From assembly GCA_001303545.1 (NCBI GenBank), contig LJUA01000018.1:1-33021 (forward strand): DNA of 33,021 bases. The letters run 5' to 3'. The notes beneath the pieces were generated by a model. The model did not search any database. It was not told where the DNA came from and saw only the letters and a list, made by a program, of their open reading frames with translations. How positions within the stretch are numbered: position 1 is the stretch's first letter; every line of letters starts with the position of its first letter. Below, piece after piece: positions 4,179 to 11,375 of this stretch. The DNA is from Dehalococcoidia bacterium SM23_28_2 (GTDB lineage Bacteria > Chloroflexota > Dehalococcoidia > SM23-28-2). The position numbers and the translations under genes were made by a program.

Positions 4179-6245
4179 TCAGGGGCTGAACGACCAGATG
4201 ACTCCGTAGGGTTGGGTGACGAGGACAAGGAGGGAGTCGAACTGCTCCAGTTGGGCGAGTTCGCTTGACCCCTGCCTGTCGGGGATGAACCGGAGCCAGG
4301 ACTGGTCGGGCTTTAGAAGGTAGATTATTGCAAACTGGTCATTGATGGCTTCCGTGGCCGATTCTATGTCCTGCGGAGGGCCGCCGTAGCAGACGCTGTT
4401 CCATCCCGACCCCAGGCTGACGCTCGTGAGGGCTGTGCTGGAGGTTTCTTGCTCCCAAATAGCGTCGCTGCCCATGAGGATGAACAGGGAGTCGTAGGGG
4501 CTGAGGGTTTTGAGGTTGCTGGCTTCCGGTCGGCCGGCGAACCACCTGTCGAACTGCTGATCGGGCCTGAAACGGTAGATGGCCACGGCGCTGTTCAGCA
4601 CGTTAGCCAGAGCCGTTTCGGTGGGCCGCTGTGGGCCCCTGTAGCACACAGCGTTCCAGTTGCGCACGAGCGGAACGGTGGTGGTGTTCACCGGCGGAGG
4701 CGGGCCTGGGTACAACTCGGGGCCGAAGCCGGCGAAGAGGGCATCGGCATCGCCTTGGTAGGCGTCGGAGGTGATGCCTGCGACCACGGCGATGGGCTCA
4801 TCGGAGGTGATCACCGCCGCTCCCTCGAAGTCGTCCGGTAGCAGGGCGTCGGTATGCTGGTCGAAGATCTTGGAGCTTGCCACAGTGTCGCTGAAGGACA
4901 GGGAGCCGCCCTCCAGTTCGTTGCTGTGGTAGGTGACCTGAATGTTGGCTGTATCGCCATCGGCGACCTGAACTTGGAACCAGGAGTTCCAGCCAGCAGC
5001 AGCGTTGAGAGGACCCTTCCAGCCCGAATTCTTATAGACCACCGGTAGCCAGACCTTGGTCGAGGCCGTCGACTGGGGGATGCCCGCGAAGGCCCCGAAG
5101 GAGGCCTTGCCGGGGACGGCGGAGGCCATCGTCTGGACAACCGCCAGCAACTGCTCACCAGTGATGGTGGCCGAGCCCACGAAGCCGTCGGGTAGGTCGG
5201 CCTCCAGGGCCTGGTCGATGACGGTGGAGGCCTGCACCACGTAGGTCTTGCGAAGGGAGCCATCGGGATCGGGAAGGCGTTCATCGCAGCAGTACGTGAC
5301 GCTCACTTCGGTCGTCTGGGTGGGGTCAGCAGTGCTGATGGAGAGCTTGGTGTTCCAGCCCGTGGTTTCACCGAAGTTCTTGAACACGAGAGGCACGAGG
5401 ACAGCGGTGGACAGGTCGCCTGTCCCCGAGGGATCCCAGCCCAGGCCCTTGTAAGAGGCGAGGCTGGGCTGCTGGCTGTTGAAGATATCGGCGCCGGCCG
5501 CCAACAGGGGAGCGGGGGTTGCCTCCTCGGCGTTGCTTACCGTCTCTACGATGAGGGAGCCCTCGAACTGCTCCGGGAGTTCCTCGGTCATGTTGGCCTG
5601 GTTGCGCAGGATGGTGCCTCCTGCCGGCAGGACTCGGCCGCCATTGGGGCACTGGGGGTCGGCCACAGCATCGACCGCCGGCTCGCTGAAGGCCACCGTG
5701 CCGTCGTGGCTGAGATAGGTCATCTGCACACAGGCGATGGTGGATGTGCTCACGTTCTGGATGGCGAAGCGTGTGTTCCACGCACCGTCGGGTCCAAAGC
5801 GGCTGTAGATGAGCGGTAGGTAGACACGGCTGGAGCCGACCGAGAGGCCGTTGTCGGCACCCAGGGAGAGGGCGGGTCTCTCTCCGATAGACTTGAGGAC
5901 GACGGTCTTTATCGGCTGATCAGCGGTGACCACGGCAGAGCCCGCGAAGCCGGAGGGCAGTTCGGGCTGCTGGGCTTGCTCGAAGAGGGTGGAGGCGCCG
6001 GGAGAGAGATCGTCCACGCTGTCCTGGGCGACGCGGAGGCCGTCAGGGTCGTAGTAGTCGACAATGACCGAAGCGGGGAACAGGCCGGCGTTCTGCACCC
6101 AGAAGGAGCTGTTCTCCACCCCCAGGGTGTAGGGCTGGCCTACAGGCTGGGCTCTAAGGCCACGGGGAGGATTAATGATGACCAGGATCGCCAACAGCGA
6201 GAGGAAAGCACCAAGGCCTAGCGCTATCCAGAGTCGTCCCCTCAT
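4179..6245 (-). CDS. Secreted or membrane-anchored multi-domain repeat protein, possible surface protein
   Basis: N-terminal hydrophobic segment MRGRLWIALGLGAFLSLLAILVII; repeated GFxGSAxxTxxQPI blocks; two C-terminal WNxVCYxGPxxxxExA units. Confidence 0.7.
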   Translation of the reverse strand: MRGRLWIALGLGAFLSLLAILVIINPPRGLRAQPVGQPYTLGVENSSFWVQNAGLFPASVIVDYYDPDGLRVAQDSVDDLSPGASTLFEQAQQPELPSGFAGSAVVTADQPIKTVVLKSIGERPALSLGADNGLSVGSSRVYLPLIYSRFGPDGAWNTRFAIQNVSTSTIACVQMTYLSHDGTVAFSEPAVDAVADPQCPNGGRVLPAGGTILRNQANMTEELPEQFEGSLIVETVSNAEEATPAPLLAAGADIFNSQQPSLASYKGLGWDPSGTGDLSTAVLVPLVFKNFGETTGWNTKLSISTADPTQTTEVSVTYCCDERLPDPDGSLRKTYVVQASTVIDQALEADLPDGFVGSATITGEQLLAVVQTMASAVPGKASFGAFAGIPQSTASTKVWLPVVYKNSGWKGPLNAAAGWNSWFQVQVADGDTANIQVTYHSNELEGGSLSFSDTVASSKIFDQHTDALLPDDFEGAAVITSDEPIAVVAGITSDAYQGDADALFAGFGPELYPGPPPPVNTTTVPLVRNWNAVCYRGPQRPTETALANVLNSAVAIYRFRPDQQFDRWFAGRPEASNLKTLSPYDSLFILMGSDAIWEQETSSTALTSVSLGSGWNSVCYGGPPQDIESATEAINDQFAIIYLLKPDQSWLRFIPDRQGSSELAQLEQFDSLLVLVTQPYGVIWSFSP

Positions 6246-6319
6246 GGTCTACTGCATCTTCTTCCACAGCGAGACTTGATGCCTTATCGTATCCTGGCTA
6301 CGTTGGCAAGTCAATTCTG

Positions 6320-6372
6320 CAAAAAAGGGGGAGGGGTGCTCCCAGCGGCCGGTAAGTCTGGAGAGCACCCCT
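6320..6372 (-). terminator. Intrinsic terminator-like hairpin followed by T6 on the minus strand
   Basis: Perfect 10-bp inverted repeat aggggtgctc (6332-6341)/gagcacccct (6363-6372). The minus strand reads ...gggagcacccctcccccttttttg. Confidence 0.7.
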
Positions 6373-6398
6373 GCGGAAGGAACGGACATCGATGTGCA

Positions 6399-6485
6399 TC
6401 AAGGGGGTGACTTGCGCACAGGCGGTGAGCGCTCGGTTAAGGACAACACGTCTGTAACCACAGACAGGTTGACTACTCGTTTCAT
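6399..6485 (-). CDS. Possible 28-aa small ORF MKRVVNLSVVTDVLSLTERSPPVRKSPP
   Basis: ATG directly follows gaaggag on the minus strand, so spacing is poor; stop at 6399-6401. Not in the ORF track. Confidence 0.15.
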   Translation of the reverse strand: MKRVVNLSVVTDVLSLTERSPPVRKSPP

Positions 6486-6652
6486 CTCCTTCGTTCCTTA
6501 TTTGGCTGACCGAACCGTTGCTCGGTCGGTCCGCTCACTATCGCTGCCCGCTGTTGGCGGTTGCCGTTGGTCAGACTAGGATAAGCCTGGGTCGTGCATT
6601 CTGTTCATTCCTTCGAGACGAAGGAATGTAAGATGGCTCAGGGGATATGGAG

Positions 6653-6690
6653 AAAAGGGAGTCGCTGCCTCTTGGGCTGACGTCCCTTTT
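6653..6690. terminator. Bidirectional terminator-like hairpin
   Basis: aaaaggga...tccctttt, an 8-bp perfect stem with an A/T run on both sides, 25 nt downstream of the 80-aa minus ORF. Confidence 0.4.
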
Positions 6691-6714
6691 CGATCAGAAC
6701 CTGGTGCGACAGTG

Positions 6715-6948
6715 CTAGGCTATCACCTCCTCCCTGCTGCGCCGTGCAGGCCCGCGACGGTGGGGGTGCGGCAGTCCCTGAGCGGGTCGGCCGGGCACGG
6801 CAGTCCCTTGATGGGAGTGCCCCGATAAGGAGCCAGCAGGGAGGATGGAGACTACAAGAGGGAACGCCGGAACAGGTCCCCCCGGTCGTGCCGTGGCCGA
6901 GTAGACCCCTGGCCGGGTTCCGGCGTTCGCAGATGAGGCGTCGGTCAC
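6715..6948 (-). CDS. Small ORF (about 77-80 aa) directly downstream of the riboswitch-like element
   Basis: aaggagg lies 9 nt upstream of GTG at 6948 (track start TTG 6957): MTDASSANAGTRPGVYSATARPGG... No recognised family; composition is compatible with a chance ORF. Confidence 0.25.
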   Translation of the reverse strand: MTDASSANAGTRPGVYSATARPGGPVPAFPLVVSILPAGSLSGHSHQGTAVPGRPAQGLPHPHRRGPARRSREEVIA

Positions 6949-6965
6949 TTGTCCCAACCTCCTTC

Positions 6966-7050
6966 GGCGGCTCGGCAGCCGTAGCCTTTCGGCTTTAGGC
7001 CCGAAGCTTTGCGCCTCGCCCTTTCGGGCGGTTTGCCTTTATCGGGAGTG
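6966..7050 (-). ncRNA. Cyclic di-GMP-I (GEMM-I) riboswitch-like aptamer
   Basis: Minus strand: gataaaggcaaaccgcccgaaagggcgaggcgcaaagcttcgggcctaaagccgaaaggctacggctgccgagcc. Matches GEMM landmarks: GGCAAACC, GAAA-capped stem, GACGCAAAGC-like segment, CGGGCCUAAA receptor strand, GGCUGCCG 3' segment. Confidence 0.82.
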
Positions 7051-7286
7051 TGGGCACTCCGCTCGACGTTGCCTGGTTAACATAACCAGGGCTGCACAGA
7101 TAAGACATCGGAATCGCGCATCTGTTACAGGGAATGCGTGTTAGGTTGGTAGAAAATCGTAGCTTCGGTGGCAGGAGATATGAAGTGAGCGCTGTTTTGG
7201 TGGGGATGCGGGGGCGGGTGGCGCGCTTAGTTAGCGCAATCAGTGAACGATTGAGCTTGCTGGCAGCGCTTCGGGGAGCCGACGGG

Positions 7287-7769
7287 CTATTTCTTTTCCC
7301 AGATGAACTCGCAGATGGGGTCGCCCTTGGGGATCGCCTTGGTCAGGACCCACCTGTATTGTGGATTGATGACCTCGGCGATGCCGTCGCATATGGGCTG
7401 GAAGGCGTAGCAAACATCAACGGGGAGGTTCTGGAACGGGCAGGCGGTAACCTGTTTCACCACTCTCTCCGAACTGGCGTCGGTGGGCTTGCCCACAACC
7501 CGCAGCACCTGCTCCTCCATCAGGTGGGTGATGGCGGAGAGGGCCAGGGCATCCTTGCCGGTGATGCCCAGCTCAGGTGCCAGGGAGGCGATCTCTTTTC
7601 CGAGCTGCTTGAGGGAGGGGTAGACGATCTTCTGGGCCTCCTCTGGACCAAATCTGTCCACCATGGCCTGCATCAGCGCGGCGGCGGCCTGACCCAGAAG
7701 GACCACCGCCTGCTGGTGGGCCACCTCTGGAGGCAGCCGTGGGACCTGTACTTCGGTCATAGCCTTCAC
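7287..7769 (-). CDS. L-2-amino-thiazoline-4-carboxylic acid hydrolase-like family protein
   Basis: CPFQNLPVDVCYAFQPICDGIAEVINPQYRWVLTKAIPKGDPICEFIWEKK resembles the C-terminus of this family. Confidence 0.55.
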   Translation of the reverse strand: MKAMTEVQVPRLPPEVAHQQAVVLLGQAAAALMQAMVDRFGPEEAQKIVYPSLKQLGKEIASLAPELGITGKDALALSAITHLMEEQVLRVVGKPTDASSERVVKQVTACPFQNLPVDVCYAFQPICDGIAEVINPQYRWVLTKAIPKGDPICEFIWEKK

Positions 7770-8378: not shown

Positions 8379-11375
8379 CTACGGGTTCGGAAGTGGTGGT
8401 TTCTGGGTGGGGGCGAAGCCGTGGCGCATCGTGTTCTCGGTTACGGTGCGGGGCTCCATGAACTGCCGGAGGTAGTCAGGCCCGCCGGCCTTGGAGCCGA
8501 TGCCGGACATGGCGAAACCGCCGAACGGCTGGCGGGCGACCATGGCACCCGTGCAGCCGCGGTTGATATACAGGTTGCCGACCCGGAACCGCTGGCGGGC
8601 CAGCTCGATGTGAGAGCCGCTGCGGCTGTAGAATGAGCCGGTCAGCGCATATGGCGTATCGACGGCGATCTCGATGGCTTCCTCCACGCTCGAGGCGCGC
8701 AGCACGGCCAGTACGGGGCCAAAGATCTCCTCCTGGGCGATGACGGCCTGCGGGTCCACCTCGCCGAAGATGGTCGGAGCGACGTAGTAGCCTCCGTCCT
8801 CGGGGGGCGTGCCCTCGAATAGGACGGACGCCTCGCCGCGGCCGATCTCGATGTAGCGTTCGATTCCGGCCTTGGCCTCGTCGGTGATCACCGGCGGCAC
8901 AAATACGGCGGGGTCTTCGGCCGGCCCGACACGCAGGCTGCGGGTGGCCTCGACAACCCTTGAGAGCAGGCGGTCGTATATGGCGTCCAGGGCGATGACG
9001 CGGCTGCAGGCGCTGCACTTCTGGCCGGCGTAGCCGAAAGCGCTCTTCACGATGCCAAGGACGGCCTGATCGAGGTCGGCGTCGTCATCGACGATGATGG
9101 CGTTCTTGCCGCCCATTTCGGCGATGATCTTCTTGATCCCTCTCTGGCCCTCTTTCGTCTGTCCGGCCTTCTCCACGATCCACAGGCCCACCTCGCGGCT
9201 GCCGGTGAAGGCGATCATGTCCACGTCGGGATGCTCCACGAGCGTCGCTCCCAGCGCGCCGCCAGGCCCGGGCAGGAACTGGACTACGCCAGGCGGCGCT
9301 CCCGCGCGGCAGAGGATCTCGATCAGGCGGGCGGCGATCCGCGGCGCCGGACTCGCCGGCTTGAGGATGACCGTGTTCCCGGTCACGAGCGCCGCCGTGA
9401 ACATCCCGCAGGGGATGGCCAGCGGGAAATTCCAGGGGGAGATGATCGCCGCTACGCCGCGGGGCTGATAGCGGTAGTCGTTATACTCTCCGGGCAGGGA
9501 GAGCAACTCCTGGGGATCGCCCAGGGCGACCGCTTCGCGGGCGTAGTACTCCAGATAGTCGATGGACTCGCTGACATCGGCGTCGGCCTCTCGCCAGGAC
9601 TTGGCCTCTTCCAGGACCTCGATGGCGGCCAGATCATGGCGCTCGCGGCGCATGATGGCCGCCGCGTCGAATAGCACCTGTGCGCGCTCTCTTGCCGATC
9701 GGTCTCGCCAGGCTGGGAAGGCCTGTCTGGCAGCCTCGATCGCCTGGCGGGTGAGATCGTCGTCCGCCTGTCCCACGTCGCAGATGACCTCGTCGGGGCA
9801 GGCCGGGTTCACGCTCGGCTGCCGATCGGAGCTTTTCACGTAGTCGCCAGCCACGAGCGGGTCGCAGGTCTCGGGAAGGCGGGCCCTGAGCTGTTCGATG
9901 GCAAAGGCGAAATCCTGGCGCTCGCGCGTCGTGTGGAAGGCGGTATCGGGCACGTTGCGGAACGGACCGGGGACGTCGGTCGGCCGGACACGGGGGATGG
10001 CCGCCGAGGGTGGTCCCGCGGCTGGCGTCACTGCTGGCGGGGCCAGCAACTCGGGGATGGGGGCTCTCTCCTCGAACAGCTCGAAGAGCCAGGACTGGCT
10101 GGAGGCGTTCTCCAGCAGCCGTCTCACAAGGTAGCCCATGCCGGGGATGAGCTCGCCCACCGGCGTGTAGATGCGCACTCGCTCGTAGGAGGCGATGGCC
10201 GCCTGCAGCGCCTCTGCCATTCCATACAGAAGCTGGAACTCGAGGGCACGAGGAGGCAGCCCTCGCTGCCGCGCGGACACCATGGCGTGCGCGACGGAGC
10301 GCGCATTGTGGGTGCCGAAGGCGGGAAGCAGGTGAGGGTAGGCGTCGAGGAGGGCCTCCGTGCAGCGCTCGAAGTTGGCATCCGTCTCCGCCTTGCTCTC
10401 GAATACAGGGACGGGCCAGCCGTGCTGCGAGTTGACTATCCGCTCCTCATCCCAGTAGGCCCCCTTGACCAGCCGGATCGTCAGTGGGGCGCCGCGGGCC
10501 TTGGCAAACTCCGCCAGTCCGCGAAGGTCATCGAGGGTCTCAAACAGGTAGGTCTGCAAAGCTACGCCCACGTGCGGGTAGCTGACCAACTCCTGCTCCG
10601 CTAGAAGGTCGCGGAGGATGCGCAGCGTCAGCTCCTTGTGCTCGTACTGCTCCATATCAACATTGACGAAGGCCCCGGCTTCCACGGCTCGGCGCATGAT
10701 CGGGCGAATGCGTTCGCGAACCCGCTCACCGGTGTCGTCCGGCGCGGCCGAGTTGAACTGGGAGTAGAGCGATGTCAGCTTGATGGACACGTTGAGGCGG
10801 GGGACGGTGCCCCACGGCGCCTCGTCGAGGGCGGGGTTGGCAGGCCAGGCGCGGACAACCCGGTCGAGCGTGTCGAGGAGCTCGAGGTAGCGGGCCTGGT
10901 ATTCGTCCGCCTCGGCCTCGCTCACCGTGGCCTCGCCCAGCAGGTCCAGCGAGAAGCCGAGGCCGTCTGCGTGCAGTTTCTCCAGGACGGGCACGGCTTC
11001 CTGGGCCGTGCGACCGGCTATGAAGCGCTGGCCGACCTCAAGGACACTGCGCTGGACGAGATGGGCGAGGACGGGCCGGGTCAGTGCGCTGGAGGCGAGG
11101 GCGGTGCCTATCCGGCGGGGGAGCAGGCTGAGCTCCTCGCCGCCGAAGTAGTCGCGGAAGTGGCTGACTATGGCATCTTCGTCCTGGAGCATGGGGAACA
11201 CGTCGACGAAGCGCAGCACCTGCGTCTTGAGCGCCTCCTCGGCCACCGCCCGACGAAGGAGTTGCTCGTACCACCACTCGCCCTCCCAGAGGTGGGGGCG
11301 ATGGCGGTCCATCACTTCGATCAGGTCGCGTCCCAGACGGTAGATCTCTTGCTCGGTCTCGTGGCTGGTCGTCAC
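8379..11375 (-). CDS. putA: Bifunctional proline dehydrogenase / L-glutamate gamma-semialdehyde dehydrogenase
   Basis: N-terminal ProDH motifs (IRLVKGAYWD, TPVGELIPGMGYLVRRLLENAS) and C-terminal aldehyde dehydrogenase motifs (SPWNFPLAI, FTGSREVG, EMGGKNAIIVDDDAD, GYAGQKCSACSR). Confidence 0.9.
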   Translation of the reverse strand: MTTSHETEQEIYRLGRDLIEVMDRHRPHLWEGEWWYEQLLRRAVAEEALKTQVLRFVDVFPMLQDEDAIVSHFRDYFGGEELSLLPRRIGTALASSALTRPVLAHLVQRSVLEVGQRFIAGRTAQEAVPVLEKLHADGLGFSLDLLGEATVSEAEADEYQARYLELLDTLDRVVRAWPANPALDEAPWGTVPRLNVSIKLTSLYSQFNSAAPDDTGERVRERIRPIMRRAVEAGAFVNVDMEQYEHKELTLRILRDLLAEQELVSYPHVGVALQTYLFETLDDLRGLAEFAKARGAPLTIRLVKGAYWDEERIVNSQHGWPVPVFESKAETDANFERCTEALLDAYPHLLPAFGTHNARSVAHAMVSARQRGLPPRALEFQLLYGMAEALQAAIASYERVRIYTPVGELIPGMGYLVRRLLENASSQSWLFELFEERAPIPELLAPPAVTPAAGPPSAAIPRVRPTDVPGPFRNVPDTAFHTTRERQDFAFAIEQLRARLPETCDPLVAGDYVKSSDRQPSVNPACPDEVICDVGQADDDLTRQAIEAARQAFPAWRDRSARERAQVLFDAAAIMRRERHDLAAIEVLEEAKSWREADADVSESIDYLEYYAREAVALGDPQELLSLPGEYNDYRYQPRGVAAIISPWNFPLAIPCGMFTAALVTGNTVILKPASPAPRIAARLIEILCRAGAPPGVVQFLPGPGGALGATLVEHPDVDMIAFTGSREVGLWIVEKAGQTKEGQRGIKKIIAEMGGKNAIIVDDDADLDQAVLGIVKSAFGYAGQKCSACSRVIALDAIYDRLLSRVVEATRSLRVGPAEDPAVFVPPVITDEAKAGIERYIEIGRGEASVLFEGTPPEDGGYYVAPTIFGEVDPQAVIAQEEIFGPVLAVLRASSVEEAIEIAVDTPYALTGSFYSRSGSHIELARQRFRVGNLYINRGCTGAMVARQPFGGFAMSGIGSKAGGPDYLRQFMEPRTVTENTMRHGFAPTQKPPLPNP

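Follow-up and report, generated by a model that had tools for sequence, protein, structure and literature searches.

What does a c-di-GMP aptamer serve when no gene stands beside it? The question is posed by a locus of Dehalococcoidia bacterium SM23_28_2, in a window (the whole 33,021-nt stretch analyzed) that makes up all of contig C82 of a 74% complete MAG of 106 contigs. An earlier note on this DNA had proposed a minus-strand GEMM-I aptamer that might control a small ORF, a noncoding RNA or a distant surface protein. The relevant features, in 5′-to-3′ order along the minus strand, are as follows; G001 and G002 are two other species of the same genus, whose members are uncultured.

7101 to 7128, minus: candidate ECF-like promoter GTAAC-N17-GTCTTA, upstream of the aptamer in both congeners too
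7072 to 7090, minus: palindrome CCTGGTTATGTTAACCAGG, a 5′ hairpin or operator, with a compensatory change in the congeners
7045 to 7060, minus: small hairpin GGAGTG-CCCA-CACTCC, read from the sequence, overlapping the P1 5′ strand; conserved in G001, weaker in G002
6963 to 7047, minus: c-di-GMP-I (GEMM-I) aptamer (RF01051, 77.7 bits, E 7.8e-14)
6953 to 6962, minus: GGAGGTTGGG, Shine–Dalgarno-like, the P1 3′ strand and also the 5′ strand of an alternative helix with 6840-6852
6715 to 6957, minus: 80-aa ORF starting at TTG 6957 or GTG 6948, in which mismatches show no codon-phase bias and indels disrupt the frame
6862 to 6928, minus: conserved hairpin (inverted repeat) with arms 6917-6928 and 6862-6873
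6826 to 6852, minus: near-invariant GTCTCCATCCTCCCTGCTGGCTCCTT block, able to pair with GGAGGTTGGGAC (alignments of three species)
6726 to 6738, minus: AGCAGGGAGGAGG, perfect partner of CCTCCCTGCT (inverted repeat I2), in the window and G001 only
6435 to 6829, minus: middle segment of ~395 nt, single copy, in the window and G001, absent from G002
6321 to 6372, minus: long terminal hairpin AGGGGTGCTC...GAGCACCCCT followed by TTTTTT (terminator-like scan)
6286 to 6314, minus: putative sigma70-type promoter TTGACT-N17-TACGAT of the repeat protein, conserved in G001
4179 to 6245, minus: ORF for a 688-aa secreted repeat protein with no Pfam match

Identity and predicted ligand preference of the aptamer

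The Rfam comparison suggested in the earlier note gave a significant minus-strand match. Specifically, cmscan aligned positions 6963-7047 with the full length of the c-di-GMP-I model (1-87 of 87), and the score of 77.7 bits, against a gathering score of 35, places the element in that family. The GEMM-I assignment was thus borne out, with every landmark that had been named present and in the order given; the place of the aptamer was also right, with its ends, put at 6966-7050, three bases off. No second Rfam family rose above threshold anywhere in the 33-kb window, and the incomplete genome contains a single c-di-GMP-I match. Nine GGDEF-domain matches in the genome indicate that c-di-GMP signaling is present in this organism.

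The base directly 5′ of CAAACC, which we take to be the equivalent of G20 in Vc2, is a G in the window, as had been noted, and in both congeneric orthologs (GGCAAACC, GGCGAACC and GGCAACCC). This base favors c-di-GMP over cGAMP as the predicted ligand. Aptamer scores in the three species range from 74 to 81 bits. The window copy resembles RF01051 riboswitches in being complete and in carrying G at the ligand-specifying position.

Conservation of the unit and candidate promoters around it

Matches to c-di-GMP-I were found in 60 of 198 relatives, and an orthologous RNA unit in the two congeners, so that comparison within the genus covers three genomes, all MAGs. A pattern scan of the genome contigs recovered only these two known congeners, and a covariance model of the domain that follows the aptamer recovered this genus only; matches elsewhere were weak (24 to 25 bits) and were taken as chance, as was a 28-nt match to the RNA on contig C47 of the source genome (E 0.001). 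The surroundings in G001 are syntenic with the window, and in both the unit lies after an ATC-hydrolase-like gene and before the repeat protein. In G002, the intact unit is flanked by putA and the ATC-hydrolase-like gene; the latter, not the repeat protein, comes next after the RNA, and the repeat protein is the second gene downstream. The flanks are 88% identical, a higher value than in the surroundings.

The 688-aa ORF starts at 6245, as had been described, and the absence of a conventional gene adjoining the aptamer was confirmed, the nearest real gene being 718 nt away. One explanation is that the aptamer RNA is a very long 5′ leader of this protein, exerting control via the hairpin or terminator at 6372-6321. 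Indeed, the protein is the nearest gene on the same strand in the window and G001 and is still second in line in G002. However, just upstream of it there is a separate promoter sequence, TTGACT-N17-TA(C/G)GAT, conserved in all three species (TTGACT-N17-TAGGAT in G002), and in G002 the ATC-hydrolase-like gene intervenes between RNA and repeat protein with a TATAAT box of its own. This box is found at the start of that gene in the window, G001 and G002 alike. The simplest reading of these motifs is that each neighbor has its own promoter, and the locus would thus lack the adjacent, cotranscribed gene of a conventional cis-riboswitch. We consider the leader explanation unlikely: the repeat protein is probably not controlled by the aptamer, and the comparison favors a stand-alone RNA unit over a surface-protein leader.

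The upstream block stands out from the rest of the intergenic DNA, with identity of ~0.4 at 7250-7151 and of 0.68-0.88 from 7150 on. In nine genomes, GTAAC-N17-GTCTWA occurred 34 times among the matches listed, versus six for a reversed control pattern, and many of these matches fall 20-60 nt ahead of ORFs whose N-termini look like those of membrane or secreted proteins. We read the motif as a candidate alternative, ECF-like promoter, which would place the transcription start of the RNA at ~7090-7095 (~7093). By coordinates, copies also lie upstream of GGDEF genes (source genome, C97:10677-10704; G002, C1:1148181-1148208; G003, C328:1254 and 3666), suggesting a putative alternative-sigma regulon that takes in c-di-GMP synthesis genes. 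Four genomes from another family of the order (loci L038, L037, L040 and L041) have the promoter pattern ahead of a c-di-GMP-I aptamer, with an apparent diguanylate cyclase gene next; the ORF after the aptamer includes a GGDEF-like stretch (LFNRRHFYE in the translated downstream DNA). This order could possibly form a feedback loop.

Base-pairing is preserved in two hairpins of the unit by compensatory changes, which speak for a stand-alone structured RNA. The palindrome reads CCTAGTTA...TAACTAGG in both congeners, with one double compensatory change from A-U to G-C, and in the hairpin at 6862-6928 one pair has changed in a compensatory way from G-C to C-G. The upstream block recurs, lacking the aptamer, on contig C85 of the source genome (~10220-10310; L053:1463-1550). 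This copy has a promoter-like GTAAC-N17-GTCTTA, the palindrome and the small hairpin, is 84% identical over 49 nt, and directly precedes the gene of a secreted, subtilisin-like protease whose C-terminal repeats are dockerin-like (domains named by eye).

The aptamer-less copy on C85, like the variability of the middle segment and its absence from G002, would suit the decay of a once ordinary riboswitch after loss of its gene. Against this, the aptamer keeps scores of 74 to 81 bits in three species and the flanks are more similar than the DNA around them; decay of this kind seems very improbable.

The downstream RNA, its short ORF and a predicted switch

In the RNA that follows the aptamer, GGAGGTTGG, in the AAGGAGG region, is invariant in the three species, and the block after the conserved hairpin (CUCCAUCCUCCCUGCUGG; GTCTCCATCCTCCCTGCTGGCTC) is near-invariant. 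The helix between 6840-6852 and 6951-6962 is kept in all three, bar one pair in G002. The middle segment, in contrast, is 74% identical and evolves no slower than third codon positions, indicating that constraint on it is modest. A mobile or repeated element was rejected as its origin, since it is single copy and, besides the window, occurs only in G001. The stem of the end hairpin (6372-6332 in the window) is conserved in G001 and G002, and the T6 tract is found in the window only. Thus, the hairpin is likely the end of the RNA in the window, and termination elsewhere is uncertain. The predicted ends give an RNA of ~770 nt in the window and ~400 nt in G002. Predicted folding of the 802-nt region was better than that of 20 shuffled sequences (z-score −3.97). 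Besides the aptamer, a permissive Rfam scan of 6150-7300 returned only chance-level matches, and thus no other known RNA and no self-splicing intron or ribozyme that would make the locus an aptamer–ribozyme chimera.

The 80-aa TTG ORF at 6715-6957 was found as described. Mismatches between the window and G001 by codon position were 0.24/0.31/0.23 in this region (compared in frame, starting one codon past GTG 6948), versus 0.07/0.05/0.24 for putA and 0.08/0.03/0.23 for the ATC-hydrolase-like gene. Of the 19 gaps internal to the RNA, only 6 have a length divisible by three. The ORF thus has no codon-phase signal and a frame broken between species, and it is probably not a conserved protein; the unit contains no conserved ORF downstream of the aptamer. 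The AAGGAGG sequence is nevertheless followed in all three species by a same-frame start codon (GTG, GTG and ATG), and G001 and G002 have a similar frame over ~40 codons. A well-placed GGAGG and start codon in three species count against a noncoding reading and suggest that translation may occur.

These start sites raise the alternative of a translational OFF switch, in which c-di-GMP would stabilize P1, sequester GGAGG and block initiation at GTG 6948 of a short leader ORF, and what matters would be the peptide or the passage of ribosomes through the downstream RNA. A comparable layout, in which CUCC of the P1 region faces GGAG beside a start codon, is seen in two genomes of a different family of the order (G012 and G024). 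Besides the missing codon-phase bias and the indels, this account must accommodate ORF lengths of ~77, 82 and 56 codons and a protein similarity in the shared frame that exceeds shuffles only for G001–G002 and window–G002. We regard it as somewhat unlikely.

The thermodynamic model points to a structural switch at the same site. When the aptamer and P1 were enforced, P1 took up GGAGG, through pairing of CUCC to GGAG and an extension of CCCA to UGGG. When the aptamer was not enforced, GGAGG in the 330-nt transcript paired with CCUCC, with a probability of 0.95 in the window and 0.87 in G001. The two helices are mutually exclusive in the model for both. In G002, the GGAGG:CCUCC helix was not favored (probability 0 to 0.08). 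The model thus suggests, for two of the three species, that c-di-GMP makes P1 capture a GGAGG that would otherwise pair with CCUCC. The AGCAGGGAGGAGG pairing is predicted to form in the full-length RNA. In full-length RNA from the window and G001, the model has CCUCCCUGCU taken by AGCAGGGAGG whatever the ligand state, so that any switch there would act during transcription.

Computational support for a separate RNA unit comes from the identity of the aptamer, the orthologous unit in three species, the separate promoters of the neighbors and the lack of coding constraint. The reading we prefer is that the aptamer serves as the 5′ domain of an RNA that is transcribed on its own, is apparently noncoding, is switched by ligand and probably acts in trans; in our judgment this is about equally likely to hold or to fail. 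We infer the transcription of the RNA, its ligand response, its 3′ end and its action in trans from the patterns described above. Among the three partners proposed in the earlier note, a noncoding RNA fits best. The distant surface protein is disfavored by its own promoter in three species, and for the small ORF the shared GGAGG and in-frame start codon stand against the flat codon phase and disrupted frame.

For such an RNA, the following sequence of events can be proposed. An alternative-sigma promoter would start the RNA and the conserved 3′ hairpin would end it. On binding c-di-GMP, P1 (CCCA..CUCC with GGAG..UGGG) would form and hold GGAGG; without ligand, GGAGG would pair with the downstream CCUCC block, closing a domain around the conserved hairpin. 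The likeliest use would be as a c-di-GMP-switched RNA in trans, with the C-rich block, GGAGG or a surface for protein binding being exposed or hidden. AGCAGGGAGGR sites, sought as trans targets able to pair with the C-rich block, numbered 5, 8, 4 and 6 per genome, only slightly above the reversed control (2, 4, 5 and 4), and gave no target set.

Comparison with known systems and other aptamers of the class

Nearly all c-di-GMP riboswitches have been read as leaders of nearby genes. The sole stand-alone case found in our literature search is merRNA, whose function is still a proposal. This 445-nt noncoding RNA of Bdellovibrio bacteriovorus contains a c-di-GMP riboswitch and no conserved ORF, is massively expressed, has been proposed to serve as a reservoir, was not found to be conserved outside Bdellovibrio and carries no FliA-promoter mark in the table of that paper (PMC3627812). 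It appears to be the closest known system, the likeness being one of layout: each is a c-di-GMP riboswitch within an RNA of several hundred nucleotides, with no conserved downstream ORF, confined to one lineage, and an alternative sigma factor figures prominently in the regulation around it, for merRNA (PMC3627812) and, putatively, for the present RNA. The two differ in phylum, and the conserved GGAGG/CCUCC domain is described for the present RNA only.

By this likeness, and given that the same promoter type precedes GGDEF genes, the RNA could be a c-di-GMP sponge or reservoir, acting by its abundance through binding the messenger, as proposed for merRNA. A conserved domain beyond the aptamer would be superfluous in a sponge, and we think this role improbable. 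The role of the RNA may thus be that of a trans-acting RNA, a sponge or a translational switch for a tiny ORF.

In Clostridioides difficile, a c-di-GMP-II aptamer is joined to a group I intron. There, as here, a c-di-GMP aptamer is followed by a long structured RNA, but the present RNA has no group I or ribozyme match downstream in the permissive Rfam scan. Trans-acting RNAs that contain riboswitches are exemplified by Listeria SreA and the EutV-sequestering sRNA (cited in PMC7266159). They likewise couple an aptamer to an RNA with possible effects beyond the locus that encodes it; unlike the present candidate, they belong to other ligand classes and have known targets.

In its most specific form, our proposal is a c-di-GMP-gated, trans-acting RNA in Chloroflexota that shares its promoter type with diguanylate cyclase genes and in which ligand would decide whether GGAGG pairs within P1 or with a C-rich block that can itself pair with other RNAs. 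We put this forward tentatively, as a possibility clearly less likely than not. A further independent stand-alone case from a different phylum, linked through its promoter type to diguanylate cyclase genes, would point to noncoding RNAs as recurrent c-di-GMP effectors; it would also be a small, testable switch.

Aptamers with distant or missing partners are uncommon in the class, though not unique. By a crude longest-ORF heuristic applied to 80 other class loci, the median distance from aptamer to first co-oriented ORF was 141 nt in the 77 that have one, compared with 718 nt here, to a gene with its own apparent promoter; the distance exceeded 600 nt in 8 of the 77, and in several of the 80 the first ORF was convergent. 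By the same heuristic, the aptamers at L118, L122, L129, L154 and L170 have a convergent first downstream ORF and are possibly further orphans. The second c-di-GMP-I aptamer of G002 (L032:6903-6993) is conventionally placed, upstream of a 434-aa ORF whose product was named TadG-like by eye. At L034, the aptamer is followed by a Shine–Dalgarno sequence and the ATG of a short ORF; this ORF traverses a hairpin resembling a terminator, and its end, ATGTTGA, overlaps the start of the next gene, which encodes a helix-turn-helix excisionase-like protein; this arrangement possibly represents translation-coupled attenuation.
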